Below are positions 14,828 through 22,102 of a stretch of DNA of 64,000 nt, piece after piece. The stretch covers positions 544,001-608,000 of the forward strand of contig NZ_CP054301.1 in NCBI RefSeq assembly GCF_013372285.1, given 5' to 3'. The DNA is from Marinomonas primoryensis. Lineage in GTDB: Bacteria; Pseudomonadota; Gammaproteobacteria; Pseudomonadales; Marinomonadaceae. The position numbers and the translations under genes are program-made. The notes below the pieces were generated by a model. That model made no database searches, was not told the origin of the DNA, and saw only the letters and a program-made list of their open reading frames with translations. Each line of letters opens with the position of its first letter. Positions within the stretch are counted from its first letter, which is position 1.

Positions 14828-16031
14828 TTATGACGGATACACGGGGCAAACGCAATTACGACCATTGAATTTTGCGTCATACAGTGCCCTGTCTACCATT
14901 TCGAGGGCATGTTCTAGCTCAATCATTGGGTCTAGTTCAATCACACCAATAGACAACGTAATACGAACCTCTTGTTGTTTGATCAAAAACGTATTTGTCG
15001 ACATACCTTTGCATATATTTTCAGCTATCTTTAATGCGCTTTGTATGTCTGTGTCTTGCATTAAAATATAAAACTCTTCGCCACCTACGTGAAATAGTTT
15101 GTCTGTTGATCGTAATTGGTTTTGTAACCATTCAGCCGCCGCCATGACCAAACCGATCATTGATTTGTTTAAAAAAATCCAGGTCTAGCGTCATTAGGCT
15201 AAGAGGGGTATTTGAATTTTTTTGTTGTTCGTACTCATCATGAATGATGAGGTCAAATTCTCTACGATTAGCGGCGCCTGTTAAAGGATCTGTGCGAGTG
15301 GCTTTGTCTAATTGGCGCATGAGTTGATTGCGCTCAGTAATGTCTAGCATCACACCAACCTGTCCTAGAGCTTGGCCATTGGAACGTGTGAAAACAGCTT
15401 TATTAAATTCTATCTCATGAATTGAGCCATCTGCGAATCGTACTTCTGCTTCATAATACTGAGTGCCACCTTGAGCTAATAATTGACAATCTGCCTCGTA
15501 ATAGGCATCAGCAAGGTGTTTAGGCGCAACGTCATACACTGAATGGCCTATGATTTGTTCACGAGAAAAGCCGATAAATTGACAAAATGCAGTGTTGCAG
15601 CCTCGATAAATATGGAGGTGGTCTTTAAAGAAAAGAGGGACAGGTATGGCATCGATGATCACTTGCAAAACGTCATCGTCAGTACGACCAGAGCGAGCTA
15701 AAGCAAACTGTGATATTTCTGAAATTAACCAGCTGACAGTGTGTTCGTCGCCATCACTAAAACAATTTACCGCGCCTCTTTTGATCCATTCAATGCTAGC
15801 TTCCATGCTCCATTTTTCTACAATTATGATCGCTTTTCTAGACGCTAAAAGAGGCCAGTCAGTGGCTTTTAAGTCATTTTCTGAAAGTAAGGTAATAGAA
15901 GAAACGGGACTGTCATCAATGCGTTCGACTTCTAGCCATTCGACAGCATATCCATGAGTAGATAAAAGCGTGTCTAATTGTGCCTTACATGACGTTAATT
16001 TAGGTGAAAAATAGAGGGTTGGAAGGCTCAT
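14828..16031 (-). pseudogene. PAS-GGDEF diguanylate cyclase broken by a small deletion
   Basis: The 5' frame (16031-15132) encodes a receiver-like N-terminal region, a PAS domain (about residues 118-235, with FFKDHLHIYRGCNTAFCQFIGFS) and the first half of GGDEF through DLDFFKQINDRFGH, then stops after three Gly. The second half continues in another frame (15160-14828): AEWLQNQLRSTDKLFHVGGEEFY to the stop, with RSTD as inhibitory site. The usual eight or nine residues between GH and AEWL (normally around a GDE motif) are missing together with the frame. A deletion at about 15140, within GC-rich GGC repeats, explains both. No active cyclase is expected. Confidence 0.8.
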
Positions 16032-16299: not shown

Positions 16300-17493
16300 A
16301 TGATATCAACTCTTTCTTCAGAGGATACGGTCTCTCGCCGCATTCAATACTTGCGTGTTTTTGTACTGGGTTTTAGCGCCTTTATTTTTAATACCACGGA
16401 GTTTGTTCCGGTTGGTTTGTTGTCAGATATTGCGCAGAGTTTCTCGGTGTCGCCTGCTCAAGTGGGTTGGATGTTGACAGTTTATGCTTGGGTTGTGGCT
16501 TTGATGTCACTGCCAATGATGCTGCTGACACGTAAGCTAGAGCGCAAAACCTTGTTAATATGGCTGTTTTCGTTGTTTATTGTCAGCCATATATTATCGG
16601 TGGTGGCGTGGAATTTTACAGTCTTATTAATCAGCCGGATTGGCATTGCGTTTGCTCACGCATTATTTTGGTCTATTACCGCGTCGATTGCGATTCGTGT
16701 TGCCCCGCAGGGTAAGCATACGTTTGCCTTGAGTGTACTGGCGACGGGAACGGGGCTTGCAATGGTATTGGGTGTGCCAGCAGGGCGTATTATTGGTCAA
16801 CTTTTTGGCTGGCGTACTACGTTTGCCTTTATTGCCATTGTCGCTTTAATCATCATGTTGGCCCTGTATCGCTTGTTGCCGAATTTACCCAGTTTGTTTT
16901 CAGGTTCGTTGAGCAAAGTTCCAGAAGTGCTGCGCAATCGTGTCTTGCTTGGCATGTATCTGTTTATTTTCATTATTTTTTCGGCCCATTATACGGCTTA
17001 CAGTTATATTGAACCGTTTCTAAGCGAGATTGGTCTGGCGAGTGGCGGTTTTACCACGCTGATTTTACTGTTGTTTGGTATGGCGGGCATTGTCGGTAGT
17101 ATATTATTTGGCTACTTTGGCGAAAAATTGAACAGCGCGATGATGATTTTAAGCGTCGTGGCGATGTCTTGTTGTATGGCGACCTTGTATTTTGTGGCTG
17201 CAAATATGTCTTTGTTGGTGGTCAGCGTTTTGTTCTGGGGCGCATCAATCATGATTATTGGTTTAAGTATGCAGATCCGAGTATTGAATGTGGACCCGAC
17301 GGCATCCGATATTATTATGTCTTTGTATTCCGGCATTATTAACCTTGGTATTGGAGCGGGGGCGCTGATTGGCGGTCAAATTATTCATTATGCCGGTTTG
17401 GCTAATGTTGGTTTTATGGGGGCTTTGCTTAGCGTGTGTGCGCTTGCGGTGGTGGTGTCTTTATTACGACGAATAAAGGACGCGGTTGTTTAG
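16300..17493 (+). CDS. sotB: SotB-type sugar/arabinose efflux MFS transporter
   Basis: A 397-residue MFS protein with 12 predicted helices. It follows E. coli SotB (YdeA) over its length: AFIFNTTEFVPVGLLSDIAQSF, MLTVYAWVVALMSLPMML, SRIGIAFAHALFWSITASIAIR, LGVPAGRIIGQLFGWRTTF and AHYTAYSYIEPF. SotB exports arabinose, IPTG and other sugars with proton antiport. It stands alone, and its stop codon shares 4 bp with the convergent cyclase gene. Confidence 0.9.
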   Translation: MISTLSSEDTVSRRIQYLRVFVLGFSAFIFNTTEFVPVGLLSDIAQSFSVSPAQVGWMLTVYAWVVALMSLPMMLLTRKLERKTLLIWLFSLFIVSHILSVVAWNFTVLLISRIGIAFAHALFWSITASIAIRVAPQGKHTFALSVLATGTGLAMVLGVPAGRIIGQLFGWRTTFAFIAIVALIIMLALYRLLPNLPSLFSGSLSKVPEVLRNRVLLGMYLFIFIIFSAHYTAYSYIEPFLSEIGLASGGFTTLILLLFGMAGIVGSILFGYFGEKLNSAMMILSVVAMSCCMATLYFVAANMSLLVVSVLFWGASIMIIGLSMQIRVLNVDPTASDIIMSLYSGIINLGIGAGALIGGQIIHYAGLANVGFMGALLSVCALAVVVSLLRRIKDAVV

Positions 17494-19166
17494 TTATCTT
17501 TCATCTCTTCTATATCATCAATATGCGTTGCTTGGTTTCGGCCTTGGTTTTTTGAGTAATAAAGCGCTATGTCGGCTTTTTTCATCAGGGTGTCTATGTC
17601 GGAGGACTCTCCTTTTGTTCTGGTGGCAATGCCAATACTGATTGTAATTCTATCTGAGATCTCGCTCATCCTGTGCTTTATGTTCGCTAGTCTTATGGCT
17701 TGCATTATATTTTGTGCAACAAGGTTTGACTCTTTCGCTGTTTTGTTTGGAAGTATGGCGACAAACTCTTCACCCCCATAACGAGCAATCAAATTCGTAC
17801 TGTTTTGGATCGTATGACTTAGCATCATCGCGATTTTTTGTAAGGCTTCATCCCCACTAACATGCCCATAGGTGTCGTTGTATTGTTTGAAAAAATCAAC
17901 GTCTATTAGCACAACCGATAGGTCGATTTGGAGGGTTCTGTCATTAGACAGTTCGTAGAATAAGCGTCGATCGAAAGCACGTCGGTTGGCGATGTTGGTG
18001 AGACTGTCTGTTAGCGACAGAGTTTCGAGACGTTGGTTTTGCGTATTAATGGTGTCTGAAAATTGATCAAAAGCGTGAAACAGTTCATCAATTTCATCCT
18101 TACTGGAATGAGAGAGAATAGGCTCTGTTGTCATATTACGTATTTTTCGAGTCAATATTCTAAGGCGCTTTATGGCATGGGTATAAAGAGCCAAGATGGT
18201 GCATATCATTACCGCCAATAATATAAAGCCACCAATAAACCATGTTTCTTGGGTATACACGCCATTCGAGAGGGCTAATATTTTATCTTTCAAGTACTTG
18301 TTTTTATTCAGTGAGAACTGATTTGCAACGTTGCTGTAGTCGCTGATTAAGTTTCGAATGAAGTACTCTCTACCTCGCGTGCGGCCAATCATTTTAAGGT
18401 GATTGGCCTGCAAATTAAGAAGTCCCTGATCGCTCATTAGAAGCTCGGTTATCGCAGTATTTAATGGTGATACTTGTTTTTCTAATGTGGGTAATGTTTC
18501 TTCCACGATAGATTCTAAATGGCTCAACTTTAATTCAATAGTGTGTTTTATTTCCTTTAGCTCATCCAGTCTGTCGGTGTCTTCTACTCTGTAGGCAAGT
18601 GTAATTAGCTCTAAGAAAGCAATTTTCCATTTGGCTTTTTGTGTTGTTTCAAGGGGCGTTTGTCCGGTATTTTCTTTGTACACGCTATCGGCTTGGTACT
18701 GTAATTCCGACAGCCCTTTTTGCTTTTTGGTGATTTGATCCGCTATGTCGAGCTTAGTATCAATGAGGAGGTTGAGGTTGTTCATTTCCTCTTGAATGGT
18801 TTTTAGTAGACGAAATTCATTTTGGCTGTAGTTGACCCTGTTAGCTTGTTCTTGGGTTTCATTGAGCTTTTTGTTGACCTCTAGCTCGGCAATTCTGCGT
18901 TCTACCGGCGTATTAGAAGACGTTAATAATTCTAGGGCTGAAAAGAGTTCACTGGACTTTATTGCGCTTTGATTTGCGTTAGTCATCGCAGGAATGGTGT
19001 TGAAGGTTAAGTCATTTAATATTAACTGGGTTTGCTCCAGTCTTGTTTGCAGTAGAGTGCCAACACCAATAAAAAGCACAACGGCCATTAGTAATAAAAT
19101 GGCCAATTTTTTAATCAAGCTTAATTGCTTATAGCCTGTTTTTTTTATCGATGACGGTTTATTCAT
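17490..19166 (-). CDS. Membrane diguanylate cyclase with periplasmic helical domain
   Basis: A 558-residue protein. Membrane helices at about 20-42 and 303-325 flank a long, helical, Glu/Gln-rich periplasmic region of about 260 residues resembling a four-helix-bundle sensor. A HAMP-like linker (about 330-385) leads to GGDEF (about 388-545) with TDSLTNIANRRAFDRR, DVDFFKQYNDTYGHVSGDEAL and GGEEF, so the active site is intact. The inhibitory RxxD position is NSTN here, so product inhibition should be absent or weak. It begins 2 bp after the stop of the nucleotidase-like gene, which implies a two-gene operon. Confidence 0.88.
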   Translation of the reverse strand: MNKPSSIKKTGYKQLSLIKKLAILLLMAVVLFIGVGTLLQTRLEQTQLILNDLTFNTIPAMTNANQSAIKSSELFSALELLTSSNTPVERRIAELEVNKKLNETQEQANRVNYSQNEFRLLKTIQEEMNNLNLLIDTKLDIADQITKKQKGLSELQYQADSVYKENTGQTPLETTQKAKWKIAFLELITLAYRVEDTDRLDELKEIKHTIELKLSHLESIVEETLPTLEKQVSPLNTAITELLMSDQGLLNLQANHLKMIGRTRGREYFIRNLISDYSNVANQFSLNKNKYLKDKILALSNGVYTQETWFIGGFILLAVMICTILALYTHAIKRLRILTRKIRNMTTEPILSHSSKDEIDELFHAFDQFSDTINTQNQRLETLSLTDSLTNIANRRAFDRRLFYELSNDRTLQIDLSVVLIDVDFFKQYNDTYGHVSGDEALQKIAMMLSHTIQNSTNLIARYGGEEFVAILPNKTAKESNLVAQNIMQAIRLANIKHRMSEISDRITISIGIATRTKGESSDIDTLMKKADIALYYSKNQGRNQATHIDDIEEMKDN

Positions 19167-19168
19167 GT

Positions 19169-20692
19169 TTAGTTCATCGTTGAAATATCGAGTATTCGCC
19201 CATCTGTTTTTGGTGAAATGACGTTTAGTTGCTGAACCTTTTCTGCCATTAAGTCAGATAGCGTGAAATTGCTGTTTTGTTGATGGTTTAGCTCTTTGCT
19301 GTTTATAAACATAGTATACCCATCTCCACCATTAAGTAGGTAATCTAGGGTAGCGACTTTGTAAGTCTTTGTTGGGTTTAGTGGCTTATTGTTCAAGGTG
19401 ACTAAAAGTAAGCGAGTTCCGGCTGGGCGTGTCGCATCGTATTTGATTTTAATGCCAGAAATTTGAAGATATTGCCCGCTTATTGAGTCTATTCCGCTTA
19501 ATCCATGCTCTAACGCCGCCGTTATTTTTTGTCCTGTTACTTCTATTAGTTTGAGCGTATTACGGTGCGGCATCATGGCTCGAATGTCTTTTCTTGTCAG
19601 TATTGAGTTTTCTGGAAAAACGGCATCGCTGCGCAGCGAACCACTATTAATTAAGCTGAGTTCTGCGCCTGTGAATTGTTTTAGTGTGTCCGCGACTAGG
19701 TCAGCAAAGCCATTTTCGGCGGTGCGTAGCGTCTTTCTGCGTAAATCAATAGGTGTTGCTGTCTTGCCTAATACTTCACTAAGAAGTGTATTGAGTCGAT
19801 GAGCGTATTCTCGTTCTTGTTGTAAAACAGAAAGTTTGGGTGAAACAGAAGTTAAGTCGATCTCTGTTTTTTGTATTTTCAGACTCTCTTTTGGGTGGCC
19901 TTGTTGCCAGGTAAGTTGAACTACAGCGGCATGCTTTTTGTCTTTTATAATGATGTTGTGTGGGTGATGAGGAAAAGCTTTATAAGGGCTAAATTCAAAA
20001 TCTTGATCTTTATAGAGCGTTAGATTAACCGTCCCTTGTTCCAATAGGCGGTCAAAAACAGGCATGAAAACAGAGTAATGTAAGACAATTAGATTAGCCC
20101 CTTGTGCTTTTAATTCAATGACGGCTTTGATAATGGCCTTTTCGGGCGAGGTGACTTCTACTCTGTTTGTTGGGTATTTAACGATGGTGTCGGGGTTTAG
20201 AACCGAAATAAAGCCTAACTTCATCGTGCCTTTTCTTAATATGACGTGTGTTTGTATCCCTTCAGGAGGGCGGTGAGTCAGAGGGTCGTATAGATTGCTT
20301 GAGACAATAGGGAACGATGCCTCGTAAGTGCGTAAGATGAGTTCATCTTCTTGGTGGCTCAATTCGCGTTTCGAGATGCCCATGACGCTTGGCTGAAGGC
20401 TGTTCAATATATCAATGATGTGCGCGCCTCTGTCCATTGTCGAAAGCATACTTGGCCCTAAGCTTTCACCTCCAAAAATAAAAAAAGTATTGGCATCTAT
20501 TTTTCTATATTGATCTATAACGCTTGCTAATTGAGCGTAATTGCCATTTTTTGTGTCGTTCACTATGGGCATTTCAGCGTCAAAAACGATGGTGACTCTT
20601 TGCTCTGCAAAGACCATGCTGTTCATTGCTACCCCTAGTATCAGGAGTCCCTTTAATAGCGTTTGATTTAAGAACAGAGGTTTAATCATCAT
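19169..20692 (-). CDS. 5'-nucleotidase (UshA)-like periplasmic protein with degenerate metal site
   Basis: A 507-residue protein with a signal peptide ending near MVFAEQ. The C-terminal 5'-nucleotidase domain is well conserved (LINSGSLRSDAVFP, IRAMMPHRNTLKLIEVTG, YLQISGIKIKYD, GGDGYTMF). The N-terminal metallophosphatase half has lost most metal ligands: D-x-H is DAE, the usual GD is GG, GNHE is replaced by ISKRE, and the GHxH motif is not found. It probably binds a nucleotide or similar ligand without hydrolysing it. The start at 20692 has GGA 8 nt upstream; 26 extra upstream codons lack family features. It is cotranscribed with the following cyclase. Confidence 0.78.
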   Translation of the reverse strand: MMIKPLFLNQTLLKGLLILGVAMNSMVFAEQRVTIVFDAEMPIVNDTKNGNYAQLASVIDQYRKIDANTFFIFGGESLGPSMLSTMDRGAHIIDILNSLQPSVMGISKRELSHQEDELILRTYEASFPIVSSNLYDPLTHRPPEGIQTHVILRKGTMKLGFISVLNPDTIVKYPTNRVEVTSPEKAIIKAVIELKAQGANLIVLHYSVFMPVFDRLLEQGTVNLTLYKDQDFEFSPYKAFPHHPHNIIIKDKKHAAVVQLTWQQGHPKESLKIQKTEIDLTSVSPKLSVLQQEREYAHRLNTLLSEVLGKTATPIDLRRKTLRTAENGFADLVADTLKQFTGAELSLINSGSLRSDAVFPENSILTRKDIRAMMPHRNTLKLIEVTGQKITAALEHGLSGIDSISGQYLQISGIKIKYDATRPAGTRLLLVTLNNKPLNPTKTYKVATLDYLLNGGDGYTMFINSKELNHQQNSNFTLSDLMAEKVQQLNVISPKTDGRILDISTMN

Positions 20693-20956
20693 GATGACTG
20701 TCCATATAGTGTGACTTGTTAATAGGATATTGTAGCTGTCTTTCCATAAAATCGAGTCAACTTTGCACATCTTTGATGCATTTTTACTTTGAGTAAAAAC
20801 GAAAGGATTTCGTATAAAAAGAAATTATAGTAGAGATTGTCAGCCTTTGATTACAAAAGCGGCCACACATTATTTTGCGAAGTCAAAGCGGTGGGACGTC
20901 GTTGTTGATGGCAAGCTGATTCTTTCGTTACCGCTCTCTAGGATATGATTTTTGCC

Positions 20957-22102
20957 TTATATTAGAGGGGGATTACCTGATAATTGAAAGCTTTCCTTGG
21001 CGATAAATTGACCATTAATAATGATTTCTACCTCATGCCATCCGTCGTAATAAACTCTCGTTGTGATGATTTTGAATGGGTGCTTTTTTGACATAGAGAG
21101 GCGACTACGAGCCGCTAACGTGGCTTTCTTCCATTTAAACACCTTGGGGGAGGTTGTGCCGTTTTTCTTTTGATGATGAACAATGTAGTCAATCATCAAG
21201 GTTTGCTCATGATCGCTCGCGGATTCTATATCGAGGGTAAACTCTAGATTTCCATTCAAAACAACCTGTTCAGAATGTAGTGTCAGTGCATTGTTTTCTA
21301 GTTGCGGTTTACCATAACCAAACGCGGTTAACACCTTGTTATTGCCTTGCTTAAGCAGCGTTCGACAAGCATGACGAATGAGCTTTGTGCGGTTTGCATC
21401 GGCGTCTTGTATCCATCGTTCAGCAATATCGGCCACAAGATCAGGGTGATCTTTAGCGATGTCGTTGAGATTATTGGCAACAGAGCGACGTACGTATTCT
21501 TCTGGGTCATCTTTTAGTTCTTCAAGCAGTTCAATGACGGGTGAAGGATCATTAATAAACGTCGGCAACTGCATCGCCCAGGGCAAGCGTGGGCGAGTCC
21601 CTTCAGAGATCAAACGCCGTACATGTCTATTGTCATTTAAGAGCCAACTCTTGAGTGAAGCGAGTGTTTTTTCTGGTGCGGATAATAAAAAAAACCGAAT
21701 GCTAAATTCAGACGTAAATCGGCTTGTCATCGCTTTTAATAAAGTCATTGAAAAATCATGATGATCAAGACCATGATATCCCACGTAATCGCCCATCGGC
21801 ATAATCGCCCAGCCTGAAATACCGCTACCGTTTATTTTTGAACTTGAATCGTCGATTTCTGGGGCCAAGCTGGCGAGTAAAATACTTCCTGCTTTTTCAA
21901 AGTCACTCGGTAAATACTGGCTCATGGCCTCGGTAATTTGCTGCGATCGAGCCTTTAGTTCCAATGTCTCAAGCTGATCACACGCGGTGGCGATAAAGCC
22001 TGCTTTATCAAATTCTTTCCAATGACGTTGAAAGTGCTCCGCCATGTTGTTAATAACGTGCTGGTTAAAAAGATTCTTAAACGGTTCTGGCATGTCTTTC
22101 AT
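20957..22102 (-). CDS. AlkC-type DNA alkylation repair glycosylase with C-terminal Ig-like domain
   Basis: A 381-residue protein. Residues about 1-265 are HEAT-like helical repeats of the DNA_alkylation superfamily (EYVRRSVANNLNDIAKDHPDLV, TKLIRHACRTLLKQGN) with the AlkC-typical HVRRLISEGTRPRLPWA. Residues about 275-381 are beta-rich (LEFTLDIESASDHEQTLMIDYIVHH, WKKATLAARSRLSMSKKHPFK) and fit the Ig-like domain described in some AlkC proteins. These enzymes remove 3-methyladenine-type lesions without base flipping. An in-frame ATG three codons later (22093) has better spacing from AGGA. The gene stands alone. Confidence 0.8.
   Translation of the reverse strand: MKDMPEPFKNLFNQHVINNMAEHFQRHWKEFDKAGFIATACDQLETLELKARSQQITEAMSQYLPSDFEKAGSILLASLAPEIDDSSSKINGSGISGWAIMPMGDYVGYHGLDHHDFSMTLLKAMTSRFTSEFSIRFFLLSAPEKTLASLKSWLLNDNRHVRRLISEGTRPRLPWAMQLPTFINDPSPVIELLEELKDDPEEYVRRSVANNLNDIAKDHPDLVADIAERWIQDADANRTKLIRHACRTLLKQGNNKVLTAFGYGKPQLENNALTLHSEQVVLNGNLEFTLDIESASDHEQTLMIDYIVHHQKKNGTTSPKVFKWKKATLAARSRLSMSKKHPFKIITTRVYYDGWHEVEIIINGQFIAKESFQLSGNPPLI

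Follow-up and report, generated by a model that had tools for sequence, protein, structure and literature searches.

For most diguanylate cyclases, to our knowledge, an input has yet to be described. For Vibrio cholerae, information on the signals of these enzymes has been described as very scarce, and one known route is purine control through a dCache_1PU domain, as in VC2224, where the purine is bound by a dCache domain within the cyclase itself (PMC11245519). In NspS-MbaA, a polyamine receptor of Vibrio cholerae, a periplasmic partner controls a membrane-bound c-di-GMP enzyme (PMC8967002), and TorS is a receptor for which the complex with its binding protein, TorT, has been solved (PMC6321045). 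A literature search of papers available without subscription returned no description of a pseudo-5'-nucleotidase paired with a cyclase; the word 'nucleotidase' does not occur in the main text of a review of c-di-GMP inputs (PMC8846402), or in the main text of a census of solute-binding proteins (PMC9602780). At the locus described here, such a protein is encoded immediately before a membrane-bound diguanylate cyclase.

The gene pair and its predicted domains

The window is the whole stretch of DNA that was analysed, 64,000 nucleotides of the Marinomonas primoryensis genome (4.07 Mb). The features of the pair are collected in Table 1. The two coding sequences occupy positions 17490-20692 and are separated by 2 bp, just as the first-pass annotation had placed and spaced them; an alternative start for the pseudo-5'-nucleotidase ORF lies at 20770. 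The cyclase gene overlaps by 4 bp, tail to tail, with a gene for an MFS transporter (NCBIfam PRK03545; 16300-17493, + strand), and a convergent MFS-like neighbour, as judged from its N-terminus, was present at 9 of 11 loci in clade A, one of two Marinomonas clades considered below. Upstream of the pair is a HEAT-repeat or DNA-alkylation-repair-like protein (20957-22102, - strand), and at several clade A loci HEAT-repeat-like ORFs, recognized by their N-termini, also lay close to the pair. A further GGDEF gene (14828-16031, - strand) was divided between two overlapping frames, 15132-16031 and 14828-15160, apparently by a frame-shift within the GGDEF domain; decay or sequencing error could be the cause. 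The genome as a whole contained 48 GGDEF matches, fragments included.

Table 1. Features of the gene pair, by position in the window
Feature	Residues	Position	Strand	Basis
Pseudo-5'-nucleotidase, UshA/CD73-like	507 aa	19169..20692	-	ORF, ATG at 20692
Signal-peptide-like N-terminus, ends MVFA then EQ	1-29	20606..20692	-	by eye
DxH remnant, DAEMP (Asp to E40, His to P42)	38-42	20567..20581	-	alignment
GD remnant, G75-E76	75-76	20465..20470	-	alignment
GNHE remnant, SKRE	107-110	20363..20374	-	alignment
5'-nucleotidase C-terminal (substrate-binding) domain	308-462	19307..19771	-	PF02872
Membrane diguanylate cyclase	558 aa	17490..19166	-	ORF; directly downstream of pseudo-5'-nucleotidase gene
TorS-like helical periplasmic sensor	59-288	18303..18992	-	VIA-align to 3i9y
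HAMP	332-374	18045..18173	-	23.9 bits, just under 25-bit cut-off
GGDEF, with GGEEF at 464-468	385-545	17532..18014	-	PF00990, E 6.9e-45

The AlphaFold2 model of the pseudo-5'-nucleotidase had a pLDDT of 91.9 and its best Foldseek match was 2z1a (E = 1.8e-37); CD73 and UshA were also matched, and solved 5'-nucleotidases superposed on most of the length of the model. Among CD73 entries, those labelled closed gave TM scores of 0.72-0.74 to the model, while those labelled open gave 0.52-0.56. The model contained a helix at residues 8-24, and the N-terminus suggests that the protein is exported to the periplasm. Pfam identified the C-terminal PF02872 domain above its cut-off (E = 1.8e-36), in keeping with the first-pass annotation, which had described this substrate-binding domain as retained; PF00149 (Metallophos) produced no match to the window protein at E ≤ 1. 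The motif positions are named after the metal ligands of UshA. Most of these ligands had been reported lost, with DAE, GG and ISKRE standing in place of DxH, GD and GNHE; the loss was upheld by the alignment, but the motifs had to be redrawn, with E40 and P42 at DxH, G75-E76 at GD and S107-K108-R109-E110 at GNHE. The histidines in the second half of the metallophosphatase domain were also replaced, by S207 and D229, the alignment at D229 being less sure. When homologues with intact motifs were aligned, the catalytic ligands of the window protein were still replaced, such that the DxH, GD, GNHE and downstream His ligands of an active UshA/CD73-type enzyme were all absent. As far as alignment can show, the two-metal catalytic site has been lost.

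The cyclase comprises an N-terminal helix, a helical periplasmic domain, a second membrane helix (the membrane helices being placed by eye), a HAMP domain and a GGDEF domain with a GG(D/E)EF motif, from which diguanylate cyclase activity is predicted. The large periplasmic domain of the earlier description was recovered in the structural model, where it was helical and contained a TorS-like region. When aligned with the TorS sensor 3i9y by VIA-align, this region gave Z = 21.9 and an rmsd of 1.9 Å across 221 of 229 residues; according to the tool's own note, helical bundles may match by chance up to a Z of about 13. Sequence comparisons gave fainter signals. PF21689 (TorS sensor) scored 15.9 bits on the window cyclase, below its cut-off of 27; of 17 partners, three gave a match at E ≤ 1, the strongest at 3.2e-4. 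A profile of 17 sensors found TorS (3o1h) as its best match in the PDB, a weak one (E = 0.0037). Neither TorS nor any other credible match was returned there by the sensor profile of clade B. The two sensor families matched each other across 311 columns with an hhalign probability of 99.1, a value that helical sequences can inflate. Searched against the PDB by sequence, the cyclase alone had credible matches to GGDEF proteins and none to a sensor, and the best 50 Foldseek matches to the whole model included GGDEF structures. The pLDDT was 74-94 per ten-residue block for residues 51-290, with an overall pTM of 0.45. On the modelled structure, the periplasmic domain shows the TorS sensor fold. 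Elsewhere in the same genome, two places gave better TorS-sensor matches than the window cyclase, both beneath the cut-off (G000:C1:1401159-1401794, 25.3 bits, and 731324-731599, 19.6 bits).

The degenerate family and its gene neighbours

Relatives of the window protein were identified in 25 of 48 Marinomonas genomes, in 13 of 390 genomes from its own order (nine Marinomonas, three new degenerate and one intact) and in 5 of 369 genomes from its own class (its own genome, one new degenerate and three intact). Nine named loci comprised six from Marinomonas, one from Aestuariibacter halophilus and two from metagenome-assembled genomes. In a second order, 22 of 345 genomes had matches at 24 places; the 17 strong places (E below 1e-130) were all degenerate and the seven weak places, in six genomes (E = 1e-50 to 1e-60), all had GNHE, with both sorts together in one genome. 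After duplicates were removed (L111 and L114, contigs of L080 and L082, were dropped, and L074-L079 repeated loci of the genus), there were 46 degenerate loci, which were aligned with 14 motif-bearing ('intact') relatives. A third relative in the window's own genome (G000:C1:3693689-3694087) was not counted among the intact proteins, there being no BLAST match to the window protein at that place. Because all loci were found through similarity to the window protein or its family, the counts describe the family and are no random sample. A single branch (SH-aLRT 100) divided the 46 degenerate from the 14 intact proteins in a tree estimated by a quick method, with a midpoint root and several long end branches; this fits a single loss of catalysis.

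Directly downstream of the degenerate gene, and on the same strand, a full-length membrane receptor was present at 45 of 46 loci. In 44 cases this was a GGDEF protein (17 and 14 assigned by Pfam, 13 by BLAST and motif) and in one a hybrid histidine kinase. Among ORFs of at least 100 aa, motif and BLAST searches found no GGDEF protein directly downstream of any of the 14 intact relatives (Fisher p = 9e-13, for rows that are related and not independent). The gap between the genes in 32 pairs ranged from -80 to +27 bp, taking the first possible start codon. Receptor adjacency spanned several families, while the other flanking genes varied. The recurrence of both degeneracy and pairing in 46 loci is more than chance, and the conservation in other genomes that the first-pass annotation had put forward as a check was thereby found.

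Two loci departed from the usual arrangement. At L068, the neighbour of the degenerate protein was a hybrid histidine kinase of 988 residues, its sensor region related to those of the cyclases, followed by a receiver-GGDEF gene; the output module has been swapped here. At L126 (G933:C66), which sat on a long end branch of the tree, the partner was a sensor-like protein of 289 aa without GGDEF, ending soon after a second hydrophobic stretch (by eye). The outputs also varied in the RxxD motif, the inhibitory I-site for the product: a motif check found it neither in the window cyclase nor in any of the 25 Marinomonas partners, whereas all six non-Marinomonas GGDEF partners checked (of 19) had it, so that product feedback may differ between these groups. 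Other observations concerned gene order. Thirteen of the 14 clade B loci (all but L053) had ORFs of 387-395, ~340 and ~320 aa after the cyclase, in constant order; at L048 (11164-14430) the first was CofD-like, the second a receiver protein whose match to CheC fell below threshold and the third similar to GGDEF. One strand of L127 (G861:C1:1807000-1824000) carried a close group of three nucleotidase-like genes, all with intact motifs.

Across the 48 Marinomonas genomes, the sensor domain and the degenerate protein were both present in 25 and both absent in 23, with no discordant case. The sensor-family profiles matched exactly 11 clade A and 14 clade B genomes, at the paired places; the only other match at E ≤ 1e-10 was a weak cross-match at a clade B locus. 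Since these profiles were built from the same loci and their relatives, the comparison tests for sensor copies elsewhere and not for the pairs themselves. Clade A and clade B never occurred together in the 48 genomes (p = 0.013, without correction for phylogeny), which is no more than suggestive.

Given this pairing in dozens of related genomes, the pseudo-5'-nucleotidase is probably the outside sensor for c-di-GMP synthesis. The favoured interpretation, to which a probability of roughly 0.75 was assigned, is a two-protein receptor in which the pseudo-5'-nucleotidase acts as co-receptor for a TorS-like cyclase, whichever small ligand is involved.

Pocket, metal site and competing explanations

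In CD73, AMP is contacted by Arg354 and Arg395 at the phosphate, by Asn390 and Asp506 at the ribose and by Phe417 and Phe500 at the base (PMC8677862). Profile alignment related R354, N390, R395, F417, F500 and D506 to R323, N349, R354, H376, Y451 and D457 of the window protein; the spacings N390-R395, R395-F417 and F500-D506 were equal in both, while R354-R395 differed by an insertion. Both phosphate-type arginines were nearly invariant among the degenerate proteins (R323 in 46/46, R354 in 45/46), as were the ribose-type Asp (D457, 46/46) and, less strictly, Asn (N349, 40/46). The second clamp position, Y451, was Tyr or Phe in 46/46, and the first was Phe or Tyr in 45/46, the sole exception being H376 of the window protein. 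With the exception of Asn349, conservation of the pocket residues equalled or exceeded that among the intact proteins. By this comparison, the C-terminal pocket that holds base, ribose and phosphate in CD73 has been kept, and its residues make a nucleotide-type ligand somewhat the better expectation, should the receptor itself be real. The signal is directly testable, because the nucleotide contacts of the likely input pocket are known in detail from CD73.

The same receptor could instead have had its pocket re-purposed for a flavin, a UDP-sugar or some other aromatic or phosphorylated compound, an explanation that overlaps with the favoured one and is possible, if clearly short of an even chance. 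Riboflavin and caffeine have been seen in the CD73 clamp (PMC8677862), the aromatic at the first clamp position is missing from the window protein, and six of the 46 proteins have another residue in place of Asn349; a pocket turned to other compounds is harder to reconcile with the near-universal retention of both phosphate-binding arginines and the ribose-binding Asp.

Selection on the two genes was assessed with simple Nei-Gojobori counts for eight pairs, of which seven were computable for the nucleotidase-like protein. Its dN/dS was 0.05-0.15 in the N-terminal half and 0.04-0.16 in the C-terminal half, the ratios being rough for four of the seven pairs, where dS exceeded 1 in at least one half; for the other three, whose dS stayed under 1 in each half, they were 0.08-0.16. 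For the cyclase, six computable pairs gave 0.04-0.16. Both halves of the nucleotidase-like protein are under purifying selection, and constraint thus persists on the dead domain, since dN/dS is well below 1 in the N-terminal half also. An interaction surface would be constrained in this manner, and YfiR-YfiN provides a precedent for a partner that regulates a cyclase structurally. The protein might accordingly be a ligand-independent activator or repressor that senses redox, the state of the envelope or another protein. This was considered unlikely, because a scaffold would not need the pocket, whose residues (Asn349 aside) are conserved to at least the degree seen in the intact relatives.

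Comparison of the 46 degenerate and 14 intact proteins at the catalytic positions bears on whether the protein is still a hydrolase with a rearranged metal site. The Asp of GD was kept in 18/46 degenerate proteins, against 14/14 intact, and Glu occupied the position of the DxH Asp in 19/46; both facts would suit such an enzyme. The Asp of DxH itself was found in 2/46 against 14/14. However, three histidines and an asparagine were lost together: the His of DxH (0/46 against 10/14), the His of GNHE (0/46 against 14/14, with Arg there in 41/46), the catalytic His that follows (0/46 against 14/14) and the Asn of GNHE (3/46 against 14/14). The first His of GHxH was present in 1/46 against 14/14, in a less certain part of the alignment. 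PF00149 was likewise unrecognizable at E ≤ 1 in all 31 degenerate proteins scanned, each of which had PF02872, whereas all six intact proteins scanned had both domains. Continued hydrolysis was accordingly judged quite improbable. That the gene is merely decaying beside an accidental cyclase neighbour, as the divergent L126 with its shortened partner might hint, is scarcely credible given 46 open frames, dN/dS of 0.04-0.16 wherever computable and an adjacency maintained at 45 loci across several families despite changing flanks.

Several observations count against the two-protein receptor: H376 in the window protein, the GD aspartate still present in 18 of the 46 and the Glu at the DxH Asp position in 19, the missing GGDEF of the L126 partner, the PF21689 score beneath its cut-off, the weak TorS profile match, the failure of the clade B profile to find TorS and the pTM of 0.45 for the full cyclase model. 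The first-pass annotation had envisaged a periplasmic ligand sensor passing a nucleotide-type signal to c-di-GMP output. Its general form gained indirect support from the pairing, from the loss of metal ligands beside a kept pocket, from selection and from the TorS-type sensor; the nucleotide-type signal is inferred from the conserved pocket residues.

The proposed receptor and known systems

Under the two-protein receptor model, the exported pseudo-5'-nucleotidase would sit in the periplasm, where its pocket would probably bind a nucleotide, nucleoside or related compound. Binding would change its domain closure, as occurs in CD73, and the protein would dock with the neighbouring cyclase at its TorS-like periplasmic domain; from there, the signal would pass along the second membrane helix, then HAMP, to reach the GGEEF domain, and so move c-di-GMP output up or down. 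A broader proposal, with a chance put slightly below even, is that a family of co-receptors has a single origin in an exported 5'-nucleotidase that lost catalysis. Its members would have replaced the classical solute-binding protein as partners of TorS-like receptors and, in marine gammaproteobacteria, would now relay extracellular nucleotides or nucleosides to c-di-GMP, with an exchangeable cyclase or kinase output. If so, lysing cells are one example of a source for the compounds sensed. A catalytic protein would have become a receptor subunit, filling a role known from solute-binding proteins; the family would also show how a new signal attaches to an existing receptor module.

The pair may be set against four known cases. 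It resembles UshA and CD73 in fold and in the C-terminal substrate domain, but the catalytic metal ligands are lost. Should a nucleotide-type ligand hold, it would share with dCache_1PU the step from purine to diguanylate cyclase; the cyclase sensor is, however, all-helical in the model, Pfam listed no Cache domain in it, and the pocket lies on a separate protein. With NspS-MbaA it would have in common a membrane-bound c-di-GMP enzyme and its periplasmic partner, whereas NspS is a periplasmic binding protein and MbaA carries GGDEF plus EAL; neither a solute-binding-protein domain nor an EAL domain was found in the window pair by Pfam at E ≤ 1. The likeness to TorT-TorS, the TMAO receptor, lies in a helical periplasmic sensor fold together with a separate periplasmic partner, which here would dock in a comparable manner; in that system, a protein of the periplasmic binding kind serves a sensor kinase, while here a 5'-nucleotidase fold accompanies a GGDEF protein. 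The system would thus combine a known mode of working, control by a binding protein, with a partner of another kind.
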